IMG/VR virus record: IMGVR_UViG_3300027847_002834 | Coordinates: 1-64,000 of that record | Reading direction: 5' to 3' (one strand) | DNA length: 64,000 nucleotides | Source: a virus | The notes under the pieces: model-generated | Seen by the model: the letters and a program-made list of their open reading frames with translations, nothing else | Database searches by the model: none | Told to the model about the DNA's origin: nothing | Position numbers and translations under genes: made by a program | Part shown: in pieces, positions 2,998 through 48,583 of the stretch | How positions within the stretch are numbered: position 1 is the stretch's first letter | Layout: every line of letters begins with the position of its first letter

Positions 2998-3270
2998 TTA
3001 GTCTTCTCTTTGCCAAAAAGTCTTTTCACAAGAGCAGTACAAACGTTTCACTTTAAGATCTTTAGTACAATATATCCACATCTTACGATGATCTTTCTTG
3101 AACCAAAGAAACTTACAATGAAACAACCGTTTTATCCGTGCGCTAAGAACACCAATAGCATTCAATATACAAATCCTCGATCTAGGAGTAAGGAAGAATT
3201 TAACTTCCATTATCAGATGACAAATTTGATTCCTTTCAATTTTACTCCAGTTTAGAAGATGTTCACTCAT
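2998..3270 (-). CDS. Possible small basic protein
   Basis: From internal Met (MSEHLLNWSKIERNQ) the frame encodes about 90 residues, Lys/Cys/Trp-rich toward the end. There is no ribosome site, and an overlapping 81-codon frame exists on the other strand. The AT-rich promoter-like element (3273-3287) abuts the proposed start, so the region may instead be a leader to the downstream tRNAs. Low confidence. Confidence 0.3.
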   Translation of the reverse strand: MSEHLLNWSKIERNQICHLIMEVKFFLTPRSRICILNAIGVLSARIKRLFHCKFLWFKKDHRKMWIYCTKDLKVKRLYCSCEKTFWQRED

Positions 3271-7543: not shown

Positions 7544-8185
7544 TTATTCAGATTCCAAATCTCCAATATTAGGCTGGAAGATTACATTAGTTTGATCTGA
7601 TGTGGTTGATCTCTCACTTGTAAAATCATATTCATAATTTTCTAACAATTCTAAAATCTTTTCATTCAGTTTTATCTCCCTTTTGATTTCATTTATATGT
7701 TTGTTAGTAACTTCTATTTTAGCATCTAACATATGGACTAATGTGTTATCTTTCTTTTCTATTTTATGAGAAATCTTTTCTTTGATCTTCCCATATTTCA
7801 TTATAGCCCTGTCTGCGTTCTTGATTTTCTTGTTTAAAGATAAAACATTATTAGTTATATGATTGGTCATTGTCGTGACAACATTCATATCAAATGACAT
7901 ATCCATATTTGAGTCAACTATTGAACCAAACAGTTGACACATTCCCGATACCGCCATTGATTCTAATGATGTTTCAGATAAGAACTCTAATGGTTCCCCT
8001 GAATCATATCTAGCTTTTTTATCAGCATCACTTAAGACTTCATATGCCTGACTTAATTCTTTAAATTCTTCTTCTTTGTCAGGATGTCGATCAGGATGAC
8101 ACTCCATACTTCGACACCTATATGCCTTTTTGATTTCATCTTCTGATGCATCAACTTCAACTCCTAATATTTCATATAACTTCAT
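7544..8185 (-). CDS. J-domain (DnaJ-like) protein
   Basis: 213 residues. The N-terminal 60 residues are a J domain: MKLYEILGV, helix II basic patch, the HPD tripeptide at residues 30-32, and the [21 protein letters not shown] helix. The rest is a long charged coiled-coil-like region with no zinc-finger or substrate-binding domain of DnaJ. J domains stimulate ATP hydrolysis by host DnaK; a phage J protein could recruit DnaK to phage assembly or replication complexes. Confidence in the domain is high, in the role low. Confidence 0.85.
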
Positions 8186-14555: not shown

Positions 14556-14637
14556 ATCTTCTGACAGGATTCGAACCTGCAAAGACTTACGCCGGGTGTG
14601 AGGTCCCTGCTTTTTCCATAATTAGCATTACAGAAGA
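14556..14637 (-). tRNA. Class II tRNA-like gene with aberrant anticodon arm
   Basis: T-arm GCAGG TTCGAAT CCTGT and D-arm TGCT/AGCA are good, and the acceptor stem can pair for ten bases (AGATCTTCTG with CAGAAGATCT). The anticodon region GGGACCTCACACCC only forms a 3-bp stem with an 8-base loop, so the anticodon (CAC or TCA) is unclear. About 12 bases of variable region. No CCA. Possibly degenerate. Confidence 0.5.
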
Positions 14638-17474: not shown

Positions 17475-17603
17475 CTCTTTTTTTGGAAGGTGGTATTCTC
17501 GTTCTGTAACGTTAAATATAATATTACATATTAAACAGCTAACATTAAATTCCTTTTTCTCCCCAAATTTCCTATCGTAATATTTACAAATTCTTCCTTC
17601 TGA

Positions 17604-17640
17604 CTCCATTTAGAACTTTTTTAATTTATTCTAAATGGAG
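17604..17640 (-). terminator. Perfect 12-bp hairpin downstream of tmRNA
   Basis: CTCCATTTAGAA (17604-17615) pairs with TTCTAAATGGAG (17629-17640) around a 13-base loop, 20 bases past the tmRNA 3' CCA. It lacks a following T-run; probable terminator or 3' processing signal. Confidence 0.55.
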
Positions 17641-17660
17641 CCAAAGAAGGTCGAACCTAC

Positions 17661-18073
17661 TGGTGGAGCTGTCGGGGATCGAACCCGAGTCCGAAATAAA
17701 CCAACAACAAGCGTCTACATACATAGGATTCTGTTTTTTTGTATTATTAAGAGATCAAGTCAACACAGACCAAGACCATTTCTCTGATTCAATTTAGAAT
17801 TTTAGTTCTCCTGCCAATTGACAAATACAGAAGACTTATTCTCACAAATTTTACACCCTCGCCACATCCCCAGAGACCTGAGAATTTGTGGGTTGAGGTC
17901 TACTTAATTAAGCAGCCACCTGATAAGCAACAGTTCCGGGGAACTGAAGGATGGGAGTCTCAACACTAGTTGTTTTAGCAATTAGTATGTTGATCGATAT
18001 TTTATGAGGCCAACGATCATCCTCAGTATGCAACTTGCCATCTAATCTACTCCGTCGAAGCCAATTCAGCCCC
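17661..18073 (-). ncRNA. ssrA: tmRNA (transfer-messenger RNA)
   Basis: Rescues stalled ribosomes by acting as alanyl-tRNA then as mRNA. Seen: 5' GGGGCTG pairing with 3' CAGCTCC, the conserved TTCGACGGAG of the tRNA-like domain, GTTGGCCTCATAAAA of the first pseudoknot region, TTTCGGACTCGGGTTCGATC near the 3' end, discriminator A and encoded CCA. After CTAATT a resume codon GCT (17979-17977) opens a 23-codon tag ending TAA (17910-17908): it begins AKTTSVETPI and ends GTVAYQVAA. The closing VAA fits a ClpXP-type degron, while the body is unlike the host-type ANDENYALAA. Length 413. A gene for a 55-residue protein lies 8 bases upstream. Confidence 0.93.
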
Positions 18074-18081
18074 GTTTAAAA

Positions 18082-18249
18082 TTAATCTGATGTGGAAATC
18101 TTTCTTTTCTTTGTGATCATGCGATTGAGTTTTCTGGCAGCTCGACTAAGAAACTTTCCATTTTTACTTCTCTTCGCGTCATCTGGTAGTTCTTCAAATG
18201 CCTGTTGCGGTGTAAGCTCTTCTGCTTTTACTCTGTCGATCAGTCCCAT
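18082..18249 (-). CDS. Small basic hypothetical protein upstream of tmRNA
   Basis: 55 residues (MGLIDRVKAEELTPQQAFEEL... ending basic, KKRKISTSD), start supported by AAGGA 9 bases before ATG. It ends 8 bases before the tmRNA 5' end, so both are likely on one transcript that must be processed. No family recognised. Confidence 0.65.
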   Translation of the reverse strand: MGLIDRVKAEELTPQQAFEELPDDAKRSKNGKFLSRAARKLNRMITKKRKISTSD

Positions 18250-18608: not shown

Positions 18609-18685
18609 TGGTGGAGCTGATCGGATTCGAACCGATGACTTCTGCCTTGCAAAAGCAGTGCTCTATCCAACTGAGCTACAGCCCC
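18609..18685 (-). tRNA. tRNA-Ala (TGC)
   Basis: Canonical: acceptor GGGGCTG/CAGCTCC, D-arm GCTC/GAGC, anticodon stem CTGCT/GGCAG with loop TTTGCAA (TGC), T-arm ATCGG TTCGAAT CCGAT, discriminator A, encoded CCA. Its acceptor is identical to that of the nearby tmRNA, as expected for a shared alanyl-tRNA synthetase. Confidence 0.95.
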
Positions 18686-18752
18686 CAAGAATTTAAAATG
18701 GTTTAATTACTATTTGTATAATTTGTTTTCTCACTTTAACATACTCCATTAA

Positions 18753-18827
18753 TGGAGCGAGTGGTCGGATTCGAACCGACGACAAGTAGTTTGGAAAACT
18801 ACGGCTCTACCACTGAGCTACACTCGC
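18753..18827 (-). tRNA. tRNA-Gly (TCC)
   Basis: Acceptor GCGAGTG/CACTCGC, anticodon stem GTAGT/ACTAC with loop TTTCCAA (TCC), T-arm GTCGG TTCGAAT CCGAC, discriminator T, encoded CCA. Confidence 0.95.
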
Positions 18828-18972
18828 GTAAAAAGTATTCTTAATCAAATTCTATTCTTATCAAGAATATGAAAATGAAAGACTGTTATGAATCCCACAA
18901 GATTACTCACTAACAATGACCCATTAGAGCTAACCTTTAATAGTTATTCTAATGATAAAATATAGGTTCGAA

Positions 18973-19062
18973 TGGTAGGCGAGGTGGGACTCGAACCCAC
19001 AACTCCCGTTAAAGGAGGCCAGATCCTAAATCTGGTGCGTAGGCCAATTCCGCCACTCGCCC
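18973..19062 (-). tRNA. tRNA-Leu (TAG)
   Basis: Class II: acceptor GGGCGAG/CTCGCCT, anticodon stem CCAGA/TCTGG with loop TTTAGGA (TAG), long variable arm, T-arm GTGGG TTCGAGT CCCAC, discriminator A, encoded CCA. Confidence 0.95.
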
Positions 19063-21382: not shown

Positions 21383-22320
21383 TATACAACTCTATGTTGG
21401 ATATGTTTTTTTTCTATGAAGTTTATTGCATTTTCTACTGCACCTACTTCCATACCAAATCTACTTTTAGTTGAACAACTCCCCAAATGAGGAGTTAAGA
21501 AGGTGTTAGGAAGGTCGATTAATTTGCCGGTGTAAGGTTCGTCATTGTATACATCAATAGCAGCACGGGCCATTATATTGGTTAATAGAAAACCACATAA
21601 GTCATGTTCATTGATTATACCCCCTCTACTTGTATTTATCAAACAAACATCAGATCTAAGATTATCAAAATCAGAACCAGCAATATAATTTTTGTTCTCA
21701 TCTGTATATGGGATATGTATTGTCACAATATCACACATGCTTAATATTGACTCTTTATAATCAGGCTCACATCTAGGCAAGTTCATCTTCTCTTCATCTA
21801 TATCATTAACGAAGATACGTCTAGGTTTCAATCCTTGGAGTTTTTCAATAACCAATTTGCCTACTCGGCCACATCCTATAACTCCCACATTACAATCCCT
21901 GATCTCTTTTCCTATTCTTCTAATCCACTTGCCATTTCTAATATCTTCATCTGTCTTTTGAACATGTCTTAACATATTTAACATCTGACAAATAGTTAGT
22001 TCAGCTACAGCATTAGAAGGAGCATCTGGTGTATATGCTACAGTGATTCCTTTCTTATGACATAGATCTAAAGGTATTGAATCAAGACCAATTCCCACCC
22101 TAGAAATCATTTTTATGCAATCAAATTGATTTAAAATATTATTATATTTTTCAGTTCCTGCTATAACTATATTAGGTTGATGTTCTGTCAAAAGTTTTTC
22201 TATTTCAGCTTCTGTATATTCTCGACCTACTTCATTATAATGGACATCATACTTATCTAATAGCAATTTAGGTGTCTCATTTGGAGTCCCAAATGGATAA
22301 GTTGTAACCATTATTTTCAT
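21382..22320 (-). CDS. D-2-hydroxyacid dehydrogenase (SerA/LdhA family)
   Basis: 312 residues from ATG at 22320, which overlaps the upstream stop (ATGA); the longer reading starting at 22350 is unlikely. NAD-binding GVIGCGRVG (about 145), NTSRGGIINEHDL with the substrate-binding Arg, an Asp/Glu pair and HLGSCS with the catalytic His. Oxidises or reduces a 2-hydroxy/2-keto acid with NAD. In this operon it may make or reduce a keto-acid precursor of the CMP-activated sugar. Confidence 0.85.
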   Translation of the reverse strand: MKIMVTTYPFGTPNETPKLLLDKYDVHYNEVGREYTEAEIEKLLTEHQPNIVIAGTEKYNNILNQFDCIKMISRVGIGLDSIPLDLCHKKGITVAYTPDAPSNAVAELTICQMLNMLRHVQKTDEDIRNGKWIRRIGKEIRDCNVGVIGCGRVGKLVIEKLQGLKPRRIFVNDIDEEKMNLPRCEPDYKESILSMCDIVTIHIPYTDENKNYIAGSDFDNLRSDVCLINTSRGGIINEHDLCGFLLTNIMARAAIDVYNDEPYTGKLIDLPNTFLTPHLGSCSTKSRFGMEVGAVENAINFIEKKHIQHRVV

Positions 22321-22973
22321 TTCAACACATCCAATAATTTCACGGCCCAATCAAATTGTACAGGAGTATCAATATCTAAACTCTCAGGATAAGGCACATC
22401 AATAAATGAATGATGACTAGATATTCTATTCCCTGTTTCTTTAAATGATGAGACTCTAAACATATAAAATGAAGAATTTTCCTCAATCATTATTGGTAGG
22501 TCTTGGGTCTGTAATAACTTTAAAGGATTATGATTAACGGGAACGGGTATATTTCCAAATGACTGCATCCAAAATCTAGACTTCTTATATTCTCCACCAC
22601 ATATAGAATCACAATCGTCCATTTCCATTAGGTTAAATGCTCGCTGTATAGTATCAGGCTTCAAGAACGGAGATGTTACATGAATCTGACAAAGAATATC
22701 AGATGGATGACAGTAATTATTTACACAGTATTTGATAAGACTGTTTACAGACATTTCATGGCCTTCTAGATTATGACTTCTTCTATAAGCCCTAACATGA
22801 CCATATGATTCTGCTTCTTCTAGTATTTGTTGACTATCAGTGTCAATCAAAATCGTATAATCAGAAAACTTTTCAACAGTTCTCTTCCATAATTCTTTAC
22901 CCCCAAAGTCCCTAAAATTCTTATTAGGTACTCTTTGGGATTCTTGTTTTATTGGTATAAATAGTATTTTCAT
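22317..22973 (-). CDS. Cytidylyltransferase, NeuA-like (1)
   Basis: 218 residues. N-terminal signature IPIKQESQRVPNKNFRDFGGKEL is that of CMP-sugar synthetases (NeuA/KdsB/SpsF group), followed by IDTDSQ (nucleotide-contacting Asp) and ESLDIDTPVQFDWA near the C-terminus, characteristic of acylneuraminate cytidylyltransferases. Activates an acidic sugar or related ketose as CMP derivative. It is the second of two adjacent paralogues. Confidence 0.82.
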   Translation of the reverse strand: MKILFIPIKQESQRVPNKNFRDFGGKELWKRTVEKFSDYTILIDTDSQQILEEAESYGHVRAYRRSHNLEGHEMSVNSLIKYCVNNYCHPSDILCQIHVTSPFLKPDTIQRAFNLMEMDDCDSICGGEYKKSRFWMQSFGNIPVPVNHNPLKLLQTQDLPIMIEENSSFYMFRVSSFKETGNRISSHHSFIDVPYPESLDIDTPVQFDWAVKLLDVLK

Positions 22974-31133: not shown

Positions 31134-31940
31134 TTACGCTTGTATTAGTGTTAGGTTTCCCCAATCTTTATTGGGAGTGCTTATATTGTTTTGTATATTG
31201 GATACAGATTTATATTTATTTGCTTTCATCTCGACATATATTTTATGTCTTGATTCGTCTGAGTGAGTTTCATGACTTACACATGAATGTTCACTTGATA
31301 TGAATCTATAGTTATTAACAAATTCATGTGGTTCTAAATCTTCTCTATCATCCAAATGACTACATATTTCAACTAAAGGAGTAGATTTATTAAATATCAT
31401 TATTCGGTTTAATAAATCTCTTTCTTCTGATCCCCAACCTACAAATTCTTCATCGAATCCTAAAACTGATTCAACTAGTTTTCGAGGATAAACCCAACAA
31501 CTACCATAACGGTCACCTTTTTTGAACTCATAATAAGATTCTTGATATGGGAACGTCATGCCATTTCTTGATCCGTCTTTAGTTTCATAACATGCAATCT
31601 TAAAAACAGTTGATGGACTTGATTCTAACATTGGGACTAATGTTTCTAAAAATTGACTATCAAATCTGAAATCACAATCCCAACCTAAAACGAAATCGGA
31701 TTCGCTTCGTTTAAATCCAAAATTCAAAAGTTTTCCTCTACTCCAATCACAATCAAGATCAACAACATAATGTGTTAAATTATCTAATTTTATAGTATCC
31801 GGATTTACTATATTTTCACTAACTGCTTCCGTTATAACAAACGCACAATCATTCAGGTTATCTTGAGTTGAGATAGATTTAATAGAATCGGGAATCATAT
31901 GAAGTCTATCTTTCAAACACATACAAAATGTCAATATCAT
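31134..31940 (-). CDS. Family 2-like glycosyltransferase
   Basis: 268 residues. ILTFCMCLKDR start, GWDCDFRF (DxD-like, about 92-99) and GFDEEFVGWGSEERDLLNRI (acceptor-side motif of GT-A chondroitin-synthase-like enzymes, about 160-180). Similar in motif order to the middle domain of the next gene upstream, with which it overlaps by 4 bases; the pair may have arisen by duplication. Confidence 0.8.
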   Translation of the reverse strand: MILTFCMCLKDRLHMIPDSIKSISTQDNLNDCAFVITEAVSENIVNPDTIKLDNLTHYVVDLDCDWSRGKLLNFGFKRSESDFVLGWDCDFRFDSQFLETLVPMLESSPSTVFKIACYETKDGSRNGMTFPYQESYYEFKKGDRYGSCWVYPRKLVESVLGFDEEFVGWGSEERDLLNRIMIFNKSTPLVEICSHLDDREDLEPHEFVNNYRFISSEHSCVSHETHSDESRHKIYVEMKANKYKSVSNIQNNISTPNKDWGNLTLIQA

Positions 31941-34900
31941 GTTATTAATTCTTCTTCTAATGTAGACATCCTAAAACAATCTAAACTACTACCAGGACTA
32001 CAATTAACTACTTCCACCCCATGTTCCTTAGAGAATTCAGCAAATGCATTCCATGCTGGTCTATGAAATATTTCTGGTTTAGGATAGTTATATTTATCCC
32101 CAACTTTTTGGTAATCATCAAGCCAATAGTTTTCATTTTTTGCAGGCGGTTTAGTTATTACTAACTTCCCTCCAATTTCAGATGCACCATCAACTATTTC
32201 TTTGTACTTACAGTCAACCCCAACAAGAATTATTTTTGTATAACCCAAGATGAGTGCTACTTGACAACAGTTAACTCCAGTGTTTCCACCATAACCAAAC
32301 GTTTCAAATGTATCTCCAAATTCAGCAATGTCACTATTTCTCAAATGAAGATTGACATATTGAAATCTATCATTAGCAGAAATATTCAAAGCCATAAAAA
32401 AGCGTTTAATTGGTACATTTGAGTCATTTATCATCTTCTCAAATTCAGCTTGGTGATTAGGTATTACTGTTTCATCAAAGCAACCAAAATACTTAGGCCA
32501 CCATTTGTTTTCATAATACCATCTATATGCACCATTCATTCCAAACGTATCAACATTCTCAATTAAATCAAAATTGATTTCTTTCATTGATGGCCCATTA
32601 CCCATTATCACTATAGTTTTTTGGGTGTAATCTTTCTTTTCTACCAGTTTAGAATCTCCCCATCCGTTAGGATTAACTTCCATTACTCGTCCTCTTTGAT
32701 TTTTAATCATTCTTCGTTTATTTATGTCATAATGTGCCATATCATCTCTACTTTCATCACCATGAGATAAATGATATATGTATCCATGCTCTGTAATATA
32801 TTCCACGTCAATACCATACTTCCTGCATATCCGATCGTTAGCATCTAACTCCTCAAAACCATAAAATTTAAATTCCTCATCATATCCATTTACTCCCTGA
32901 ATATGTTTCGTTTTATAAATATACATTCCACCATATAATTGACCTGGATGAAACTTATGACCCCCCCTATATGAATGTCCAGTCTCCGTGACACGTATAC
33001 CATAAAATGTTTGAGTGAAATTCCACCCCAACAAGTCTTCTCTAAAAGTGTTTAGAAATTTATCTGGAAAAATAAAATCAGCATCCCATGAACTAACAAA
33101 AGTGGTTGTTGCTCGTCTAAATCCATAGTTACATGTTTTGGATCTATTCCATTTATCACCGGTATTAATTACATAATGATCTATATGTTTAGCATATTTG
33201 AAATTGGAAAGATCTAATAAGTCATCACTGTAATCTTCTGATATAATAAAATTACAATAAGGGATTGTTCTTTCATTAACTAAACTTTCAATAGATCTAA
33301 TAGCTGTTTCTGATCTATTTTTTAGACACATACAAAATGTTATTAGTTTTGAATCCTTTACTATTACTTGTAAATTTCCAGCTCTTCCCCAATTAGGATT
33401 AGTCCATTTGGAATTATTCGCTAATGGTAAATTGCCAGTCGCTCTGTCTTGAAAAAATGAACCAACTTTTGGAGTTGCACGTCTAGCGTGATTTATATGC
33501 AAAAGTATATAATCAGAATTACTATGGAGATCTATACTATCTGTTTTTTCAAGTCTTCTACATAACTCAGTATCATCATGACCCCATCCAAATATATCTT
33601 CACTATAACCACATGCCTTATGCCAATCTCCACGATGCATTGCAAAACATGCACCAAGACCACCTTTATCTTTATCTAGACCTTCCCACTTCTCTAATGT
33701 CATACTTGGTTGCTGTTTAGATACATGAGAACATAAGCATATTCTGGCATGACCTAACGATACTTCATCTCGTAAATAATTGAAAATATTAGAAGTGAAC
33801 ATGATGTCAATATCAGTTTTCACTATTATAGCAGACGTATCCTGAACTGCCCTTATTCCATAATTTACAGTCTTCCCTATTGAAAATTGAGTCTGTTCAA
33901 TTGGATACATGATGTATGATACATTATCATAATTAGAATTGTAATGGGTATTAGTTACTACAATTACGTTAATTTGCATAGATACAAATACAGATCTGTT
34001 CATTTCAAGAAAGGCATCTACCTTTCTTTTTTCTATATTATATCCTGCAACTACAACATATATTGGAATTATATCTTTAGCTATTGATTTTATACGATTG
34101 ATATATACTACTTCGGTTGATATATCAGGGTGATTAACTCCAGATGATCCTTTCCGTCTATGGATAATAGTATTTGTTTTAGGAGTGTCTAACTTCCCAA
34201 TAAGCTTCCCAAATATTTTTCCGGAAGTAGTTGACACTCCAGTATAATTTAAAAAATCTACTGAGAAATCTAATACAGTAACAGTTCCTTTTGAATCATT
34301 CCACCGTATTCGTAATCTCCTTCCTTTAACTGCCAACTCTCCCCTAATTCCACCCCACCCCGTACATTCCCCAAGAATAGAAAAGTAAAACTCAGTCTTA
34401 ATACCTTTAATAGAGTTATAACTATAAGTCCGACCTATTAATAAGGTTAGAATATCTTGTTTGTCCATTATGTATGCCTCTTCGCCTTCATTACAGTCCT
34501 TATTGTACCATTCCATATTTCGAGCCACATAAGGGCGTCTGGACCTAAGAGCACAATCACCTTGTACATATCGTTGATATACAGCAAACGAATCATTAAT
34601 ATCCGCATAATATGCATCTTTATCTGGCATTAAGTTTTGCCAGTGTTGTTCTTCCTCTATAATTCTGTCAGGTTTAGATTGAATTTCGGGTAGATCGTTT
34701 ATCTCTAGTGACAATCCAACCTTTTTCATGGTCGGATATTTTCTTGCTAGACTGATTAAAAAATCAATGCTGTTTGATGGACAATTCTCTTTTGGTAATA
34801 TAGAACTACTTGTTATAAAATAATAATTAAACTCACCTATAAGTTTTAGTTCTCTATTTAATATATCGTAATCCAATTTTGGGAAAGATACAAACTTTAT

Positions 34901-35077
34901 ATCACTATATGTATTCTTTAGACTGTCAGGTATTTCCTCGTATGCAACATACAAGGAAAGGCTATGTCCAGTTTTACATCTAGTAAACCAAGCTAATATT
35001 CTTCGTAAATACGAAATCGGATTCTTTTTGTAATGCAGTATAATTATTGGTATTTTATTATTTTCTTTTACGTTCAT
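31937..35077 (-). CDS. Large multidomain glycosyltransferase
   Basis: 1,046 residues from ATG at 35077; the upstream extension to 35158 would read through a terminator. Domains: a poorly known N-terminal GT-A-like region; a GT-2 like domain with KTDIDIMF and GYSEDIFGWGHDDTELCRRL; a second one with SSWDADFIF and GYDEEFKFYGFEELDANDRI; and a C-terminal domain starting IVIMGNGPSMKEINFDL with GYGGNTGVNCCQVALILG, resembling DUF115 / Cst-type CMP-sialyltransferase folds. It would perform several transfers on one polypeptide chain. First gene of the long operon. Confidence 0.8.
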   Translation of the reverse strand: MNVKENNKIPIIILHYKKNPISYLRRILAWFTRCKTGHSLSLYVAYEEIPDSLKNTYSDIKFVSFPKLDYDILNRELKLIGEFNYYFITSSSILPKENCPSNSIDFLISLARKYPTMKKVGLSLEINDLPEIQSKPDRIIEEEQHWQNLMPDKDAYYADINDSFAVYQRYVQGDCALRSRRPYVARNMEWYNKDCNEGEEAYIMDKQDILTLLIGRTYSYNSIKGIKTEFYFSILGECTGWGGIRGELAVKGRRLRIRWNDSKGTVTVLDFSVDFLNYTGVSTTSGKIFGKLIGKLDTPKTNTIIHRRKGSSGVNHPDISTEVVYINRIKSIAKDIIPIYVVVAGYNIEKRKVDAFLEMNRSVFVSMQINVIVVTNTHYNSNYDNVSYIMYPIEQTQFSIGKTVNYGIRAVQDTSAIIVKTDIDIMFTSNIFNYLRDEVSLGHARICLCSHVSKQQPSMTLEKWEGLDKDKGGLGACFAMHRGDWHKACGYSEDIFGWGHDDTELCRRLEKTDSIDLHSNSDYILLHINHARRATPKVGSFFQDRATGNLPLANNSKWTNPNWGRAGNLQVIVKDSKLITFCMCLKNRSETAIRSIESLVNERTIPYCNFIISEDYSDDLLDLSNFKYAKHIDHYVINTGDKWNRSKTCNYGFRRATTTFVSSWDADFIFPDKFLNTFREDLLGWNFTQTFYGIRVTETGHSYRGGHKFHPGQLYGGMYIYKTKHIQGVNGYDEEFKFYGFEELDANDRICRKYGIDVEYITEHGYIYHLSHGDESRDDMAHYDINKRRMIKNQRGRVMEVNPNGWGDSKLVEKKDYTQKTIVIMGNGPSMKEINFDLIENVDTFGMNGAYRWYYENKWWPKYFGCFDETVIPNHQAEFEKMINDSNVPIKRFFMALNISANDRFQYVNLHLRNSDIAEFGDTFETFGYGGNTGVNCCQVALILGYTKIILVGVDCKYKEIVDGASEIGGKLVITKPPAKNENYWLDDYQKVGDKYNYPKPEIFHRPAWNAFAEFSKEHGVEVVNCSPGSSLDCFRMSTLEEELIT

Positions 35078-35098
35078 AAAAAAACGGGATTTAACCCG
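35078..35098 (-). terminator. Rho-independent terminator
   Basis: Minus strand CGGGTTAAATCCCG (35085-35098) followed by seven T. It ends the single 151-residue gene, and its T-run abuts the ATG of the large glycosyltransferase gene. Confidence 0.85.
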
Positions 35099-35108
35099 CT
35101 CTTCCAAA

Positions 35109-35564
35109 TTAAGGTTTAATTTCTTGGGTGTCTCCGCATTCACCTGAAGCGCATTCACTTAACACCCCAGAAATACTATCATCCGATACGGTATGAATGC
35201 ATCTTTTCCCGGATGAATCAATGATGATTACTTTATACGTCCCCTCAACCGGAGGATCCATATATGCAGGAGCAGGATCAGCAGCAGATTTATGATTTGC
35301 TTTCCACATAAGTTTATTAGAGTCGGAAAGCGTAAGAGCATACGCCGTCGTGATTGCCGATCTAGTGGCCTCCCATATTTGACAGGGAACCGGATCCAGT
35401 GTGCTTTTCACCAAAGTTTCTGTAAGATTTCTAACAAATCTAGCAAATTCTAAAGCTTCAGCTTCAGTATTGAACTCAAGTTTAATATCTGTATTCTGAT
35501 CGAAGTCAAACTGCGGCTGCAGTTCTTCCCACGGCGACAAATCCCAAAACGTTGTAACTGGCAT
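35109..35564 (-). CDS. Hypothetical protein, GC-richer single-gene cassette
   Basis: 151 residues, acidic, no recognised motif; C-terminus Ser/Cys-rich (SECASGECGDTQ). It is a single-gene unit: the TATATATAT element (35602-35624) lies 38 bases upstream, and a clear terminator follows directly. Base composition is GC-richer than neighbours. Candidate early, host-directed protein by organisation only. Confidence 0.65.
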   Translation of the reverse strand: MPVTTFWDLSPWEELQPQFDFDQNTDIKLEFNTEAEALEFARFVRNLTETLVKSTLDPVPCQIWEATRSAITTAYALTLSDSNKLMWKANHKSAADPAPAYMDPPVEGTYKVIIIDSSGKRCIHTVSDDSISGVLSECASGECGDTQEIKP

Positions 35565-46862: not shown

Positions 46863-48539
46863 ATGGCAAACAATGTAAGCCCAGGTGTGTTCACTAAAAT
46901 AATAGATTTATCTTCCTTTCTTGTAGAAACTCCAGGAACTCATGCATTCCTGCCATTTCTATCGAGAACAGGTCCAGATAACAAAGCAGTTTTTGTTGCA
47001 AGTCTTCAACAGTTTGTAGATCTATATGGAAGACCAAATATCAATGACTTTGGGAAGTCATTCGGGCAAGGCCCATATGTGGCGTATAACCACATTTCTG
47101 TTGCTCCTGGATTTTGGGCAATGCGCGTTCTACCTACTGATGCAACGTATTCTAATTTATTTGTAAACTATAATACAGATTCAACAGGGGCAATATCAGT
47201 AACTCACGAAACTACCCTTAATACACATGGGGAAATAGATACTGAAGTAGCACAGACAACTGGGACTATTACTCCATTAGTAGCTTTCTACCCAATTGGT
47301 AGAGGAGATGCTTATGATGATTTTGCCATTACAATTACTAAACATGCAAATACACAATTAACTGGAATCTACATTCTTGATATTTGGAAAACTCAAGCTG
47401 ATGGAGATGATGTAATTATAGAAACATATGAGATTTCATTTGAATCAACTGCTATAGATGATTCTGGTGATTCCATATTCATTGTGGATGTTGTAAATAG
47501 ATACTCCAAATGGATTAGAGTTAAAGCCAATGAAACATCTATTAATGAATGGCAAAAATCATCTATCGAAATTGTAGTTGGTGATTCAGTAACACCTGTT
47601 CACTTATTCAACGGTTCAGAAGGCAATATCATTGCGGTTGATTCCGATACCGGTAAGAGAACAATGGGGTCAACCGAAATTACAAATGCAACTTCACTTC
47701 TAATTGATGCATATACAGGATTGATTGAAAATCCCGAAAGTGGACTATTGGATGAAACTGTATTAGACCTAGATGATACATACATACCAATCGTATATGA
47801 TGCTGGTTATCCAACATCAGTCAAGAATGCTGCTGTTACATTAACAAGTAGCTTAAGATTAGATGGTGTAGCTATCCTTGATAATGGTGATAATGTATCA
47901 GTAGATGCAGCCCTTTCAGCTAGAGATGCTAGTCATACATACAATACTGCTTACGCATCAATATTTGAATGTTACAGTAAAATATTTGATAACCATACTG
48001 GTAAAGAATTATGGGTAAGTCCTGTTTATCACATGGCTTCAATGATTCCTCAGAATGATAGATTGTTTGGTATTTGGTATCCAAATGCTGGATTCAATAG
48101 AGGAACCGTTGATAACATTATGGAATTGAGATTCAATCCCAGGATAGCTGATAGAGACAGATTATATCTCAAACAAGTTAATCCAATTGTTAAATTCTCA
48201 ATCGGTTATGCAGTATTCTCTAATTTAACTACACAAAGAAAACCTTCTGCTCTTCAAGACTTAAGTGTACACAGAACAATTCTGTATATTCAAAGGAACT
48301 TGGAACAATTTCTCAAGTTCCATATCTTTGAATTAAATACACCTGAAGAACATTCAAGAATGGCTGCGGCAATAACACCGTTCTTATCATCAATCAAATC
48401 TGCAAGAGGATTGGTTGATTACAGTGTTGAGGTCGGAGCAAACGAATATGAAATTAAAACTAAACAAATGCACGTTAATGTAATATTACAGCCAACGAAA
48501 GCAATTGAAAGAATTAACTTAAATCTATTCATAAAATAA
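46863..48539 (+). CDS. Tail sheath protein (gp18-like)
   Basis: 558 residues. N-terminal VSPGVFTKIIDLSSF is the hallmark of contractile-tail sheath proteins; the C-terminal part (MNVILQPTKAIERINLNLFIK) forms the conserved inner domain strand. Its size is slightly smaller than T4 gp18 (about 659). Polymerises around the tube and contracts during infection. The start is clear (AAGGAT 9 bases upstream). Confidence 0.93.
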   Translation: MANNVSPGVFTKIIDLSSFLVETPGTHAFLPFLSRTGPDNKAVFVASLQQFVDLYGRPNINDFGKSFGQGPYVAYNHISVAPGFWAMRVLPTDATYSNLFVNYNTDSTGAISVTHETTLNTHGEIDTEVAQTTGTITPLVAFYPIGRGDAYDDFAITITKHANTQLTGIYILDIWKTQADGDDVIIETYEISFESTAIDDSGDSIFIVDVVNRYSKWIRVKANETSINEWQKSSIEIVVGDSVTPVHLFNGSEGNIIAVDSDTGKRTMGSTEITNATSLLIDAYTGLIENPESGLLDETVLDLDDTYIPIVYDAGYPTSVKNAAVTLTSSLRLDGVAILDNGDNVSVDAALSARDASHTYNTAYASIFECYSKIFDNHTGKELWVSPVYHMASMIPQNDRLFGIWYPNAGFNRGTVDNIMELRFNPRIADRDRLYLKQVNPIVKFSIGYAVFSNLTTQRKPSALQDLSVHRTILYIQRNLEQFLKFHIFELNTPEEHSRMAAAITPFLSSIKSARGLVDYSVEVGANEYEIKTKQMHVNVILQPTKAIERINLNLFIK

Positions 48540-48583
48540 AACAATAAGATGGAACAAATTAATAAAATTCGCGGAGTAATAGG

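Follow-up and report, generated by a model that had tools for sequence, protein, structure and literature searches.

Transfer-messenger RNA (tmRNA) releases stalled ribosomes and attaches a tag to the incomplete proteins on them. Its gene has been counted in 402 of 18,146 phage genomes, a share stated as 2.3% (PMC9004378), and the current tmRNA database holds 79 unique phage sequences (PMC11915505). Described carriers include mycobacteriophages and phage G (PMC4131195) and huge phages, some of which also encode SmpB (PMC7162821). Two-piece (permuted) phage tmRNAs are mostly from marine or aquatic phages (PMC9004378). Long tags are found in bacteria as well: Mollicutes, Elusimicrobia, Clostridia, Berkelbacteria and other groups have tags of 20–28 residues that do not resemble ANDENYALAA, with ends such as VAA, IAA or FAA in the four named groups. 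Phage tmRNAs and tags of comparable length are already known or readily found elsewhere.

The tmRNA gene described here lies in the window, which comprises the first 64,000 nucleotides of a 193,518-base viral record from IMG/VR. Like E. coli ssrA (RF00023), it has a tRNA-like domain with G3-U70 and CCA, a pseudoknot 1, a resume element and a stop codon in a hairpin. It differs from E. coli ssrA in being phage-encoded, in its length of 413 nt, in its 23-residue tag (10 residues in E. coli) and in the loose fit of pseudoknots 2–4. Complete tmRNAs in large, tRNA-rich phages are shared with the mycobacteriophage Bxz1 group, Bacillus phage G, Streptomyces BE1 phages, Stenotrophomonas phage Marzo and huge phages. 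However, no DNA similarity to the gene was detectable in 50,697 phage records, its tag sequence is new among those fetched, and no SmpB like that reported in some huge phages was found in the present record. Among marine T4-like myophages, Melnitz and the pelagimyophages also carry a tmRNA of their own (PMC9004378), but theirs is in two pieces and the present one is in one. Mycobacteriophage DS6A carries a tmRNA-like RNA with the tRNA-like domain and without the mRNA-like part, which is intact here. With this locus, the small set of known phage tmRNAs gains a one-piece, long-tag example from a clade of uncultivated myophages.

A complete one-piece tmRNA gene

ARAGORN called a one-piece tmRNA in the window at 17661–18073 (−), with the 23-residue tag AKTTSVETPILQFPGTVAYQVAA followed by a stop. 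The Rfam covariance model RF00023 matched over its whole length (1–374) at 150.2 bits (E = 4.6e-59; gathering cut-off, 47 bits). In order-2 Markov sequence modelled on the window, ARAGORN made 1 tmRNA call in 6.4 Mb, roughly 0.01 for every 64 kb; the E-value of the covariance-model match excludes a chance origin in practice. Gene order is standard and not circularly permuted in both the ARAGORN call and the Rfam alignment, and the permuted tmRNA model RF04321 has no match in the 193.5-kb record. The locus is a complete, structurally intact, phage-borne one-piece tmRNA gene. A preliminary description of this DNA had placed a tmRNA with all its landmarks here; ARAGORN returned identical coordinates and tag residues, the Rfam model that it proposed as a check matched at full length, and the acceptor stem, CCA, T-arm, pseudoknot 1, resume element and stop hairpin were all found. 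Its remark that phage tmRNAs are known but rare agrees in order of magnitude with the published count of 402 genomes.

All landmarks lie on the minus strand. The 5′ acceptor strand GGGGCUG (18067–18073) pairs in the stem list with CAGCUCC at tmRNA positions 403–409, which is followed by a discriminator A and the encoded CCA (together 17661–17671; sequence and Rfam alignment). The third acceptor pair is G3-U70, an alanine identity element. Together with the T-arm UCGGG-UUCGAUC-CCCGA (17672–17688; stem list and Rfam alignment) these form a tRNA-like domain that has no anticodon arm. Pseudoknot 1 consists of UGAGG/CCUCA interleaved with UGAUCG/CGAUCA (17991–18025; stem list), aligns to the pseudoknot region of the model and sits upstream of the resume codon. 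A UAAUU element (17980–17984) precedes the GCU resume codon; the stretch reads UAAUU-GCU ... GUGGCUGCUUAA, and its UAAUUGC equals the model consensus (UAAuUGCaAA). The conserved A at −4 from the resume codon is the counterpart of E. coli A86, the main frame determinant (PMC2481249). The tag frame (17908–17979; ARAGORN and translation) is open from GCU to UAA and finishes ...QVAA before the stop, a small hydrophobic end. The stop codon is held in a P5-like hairpin (17897–17920; Rfam alignment and sequence).

Pseudoknots 2–4 match RF00023 loosely, with several non-standard or weak pairs and low posterior values, and there were no divergent relatives for covariation; the stem list for this region includes a strong stem, 184–191/224–231 in tmRNA numbering, and others. 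A hairpin within the tag frame, CAGUUC-CCCG-GAACUG, was dropped as a candidate (folding z = −0.94, p = 0.17 against dinucleotide shuffles). Directly 3′ of the encoded CCA is a strong hairpin at 17587–17659 (−) (MFE −33.4 kcal/mol, z = −6.4, equalled in 0 of 200 shuffles). This hairpin may be a processing site or the transcript end; as it lacks a U tract, a role in processing or stabilisation is more likely than simple termination.

Genome setting and relatives

With a T4-type terminase domain, a tail sheath and a match to a baseplate wedge, the record is a T4-like myovirus contig. Its best terminase and sheath matches to named phages are below 30% identity. The tmRNA gene lies inside a cluster of 12 tRNAs spread across 2–19 kb (ARAGORN), with tRNA-Ala(UGC), tRNA-Gly(UCC) and tRNA-Leu(UAG) just upstream at 18609–19062 (−) (ARAGORN and Rfam). 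A 55-aa frame (MGLIDRVKAEELTPQQ...; 18082–18249, −) ends 8 bases upstream of the tmRNA and probably shares its transcript. The tmRNA is letter-for-letter identical in two other IMG/VR contigs of the same virus, where it lies in stretches that are 99.97–100% identical to the window; the gene is therefore not an assembly accident. SmpB (PF01668) had no match in the 193.5-kb, possibly incomplete record even at E = 10, and the same search matched SmpB in 12 of 14 control genomes. ClpP and a tyrosine integrase were likewise not found in this possibly incomplete record.

A scan based on the tail sheath yielded 76 loci of the wide clade. No tmRNA exceeded the cut-off in any of the 41 relative records searched, including two large records (224 and 277 kb), and no permuted tmRNA was found in the subset of relative records searched for it. 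The rest are mostly fragments, which leaves just the two large records to count; their lack of a tmRNA makes the gene dispensable in the clade. It looks to be a sporadic accessory gene that either was acquired by this lineage or has been lost from those of the relatives.

Several other features of the window were recorded. The tail sheath gene has its 3′ end (...PTKAIERINLN.FIK-stop) repeated in a 59-base, 93% identical copy (the pair being 2416–2473, −, and 48493–48551, +); the copy adjoins tRNA-Val on the opposite strand and is a partial duplication of no assigned use. A weak tRNA match without an ARAGORN call at 3184–3248 (−) (32 bits, E = 0.0027) is perhaps a decayed or odd tRNA, and T-arm-like pieces outside the called tRNAs at 14562–14582 and 1370–1387 (−) (CAGGATTCGAACCTGCAA; GTAGGAGTCGAACCCACA) are possible tRNA remnants. 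Metabolic genes in this phage encode a homocysteine S-methyltransferase (PF02574, E = 1.3e-54; 4–1029, −) and a D-2-hydroxyacid dehydrogenase (PF02826, E = 3.2e-40; 21385–22350, −). A DnaJ-domain protein is encoded at 7547–8185 (−), and a 1073-aa protein with a sialyltransferase-like stretch (phrog_4603) at 31940–35158 (−).

The tag and its probable function

The E. coli tag, ANDENYALAA, is no general yardstick for tmRNA tags, and the absence of an SspB motif says little outside the proteobacteria whose SspB reads ANDENY-type tags. As the preliminary description stated, the phage tag has 23 residues, has no ANDENY-like stretch and ends in VAA. Its contrast with a host-type tag stands in so far as the tag is unlike ANDENYALAA; as a contrast with the host it is unsupported, the yardstick being the E. 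coli tag and not that of an identified host, and so is the altered proteolysis that it suggested. The length, described there as unusual, is not peculiar to this phage, given the long tags of several bacterial phyla and of viral contigs, where tags have at least 20 residues in 9 and at least 23 in 6 of 69 distinct one-piece tmRNAs among the matches listed. These numbers are rough: the set comes from pattern scans of viral contigs that placed no constraint on the tag, and part of these contigs are bacterial, including one that carries smpB beside its tmRNA (L010).

The VAA ending is also present in fetched bacterial tags such as ANNIVPFARKAATVAA and AKTLTEKAKTAFAGFAFSPVAA, and the bacterial long-tag tmRNAs gave no close sequence match beyond conserved ends. 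A scan of genome contigs for long-tag one-piece tmRNAs yielded 78 loci, none with the phage's tag. BLAST found no close ssrA in 5 chosen genomes or in 396 genomes of one phylum, with matches only to the conserved tRNA-like end.

The phage tmRNA very probably frees ribosomes during infection by ordinary trans-translation, drawing on the SmpB, alanyl-tRNA synthetase and proteases of the host. Because neither SmpB nor ClpP was found in the record, host factors would be needed, and those of the host are the most likely partners. We infer that the gene is expressed and that host alanyl-tRNA synthetase charges the RNA with alanine. Host SmpB would then carry it to ribosomes stalled on truncated mRNA in the infected cell, where it would add alanine and the encoded tag, the ribosome being released at UAA. 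The hydrophobic VAA end probably routes the tagged product to a ClpXP-type host protease. The most likely benefit would be that ribosomes are kept free late in infection, when mRNA may be cut or short-lived, alongside the phage tRNA set.

No other fetched tag equals that of the phage (its best alignment score is 23, and shuffled best scores have a 95th percentile of 16), which would fit a long, unlike tag selected, as the preliminary description suggested, to alter the fate of tagged proteins through another protease or adaptor or through slower decay. However, long, unlike tags in several bacterial phyla mean that it may simply reflect its donor, and its nearest matches, from Berkelbacteria, are weak and rest on the AKT start and VAA end; such selection is unlikely. 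It is equally doubtful that the phage replaces the host degradation tag with its own long tag and so alters the handling of rescued proteins in infected cells. If the tag were functionally unlike that of the host, the phage would be steering protein turnover via ribosome rescue.

The RNA might instead act mainly as a decoy, a competitor for host SmpB or EF-Tu that blocks host trans-translation, a role that has been put forward for the tmRNA-like RNA of DS6A. The DS6A molecule, which has little beyond a tRNA-like domain, is reported as a strong tmRNA inhibitor (PMC4131195). Unlike that molecule, the present gene has an open tag frame and a resume element that fits the consensus, and it retains pseudoknot 1 and the stop hairpin, none of which a competitor would need, and this role is quite improbable. 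Least probable is that the gene is an unused passenger or attachment-site relic taken from host ssrA: mobile elements often integrate at ssrA (PMC9004378, PMC11915505) and the relatives lack the gene, but it is whole from the 5′ end to the CCA, lies within a tRNA cluster and is accompanied by no tyrosine integrase or smpB found in the record.

A 23-residue tag (ANDNVELPAWMIGASAPEFRAAA) is also carried by a viral one-piece tmRNA encoded at 730–1101 (−) of a 196.8-kb contig (L025). There is a UUCG hairpin within its tag frame (p = 0.025, with about 40 tested).
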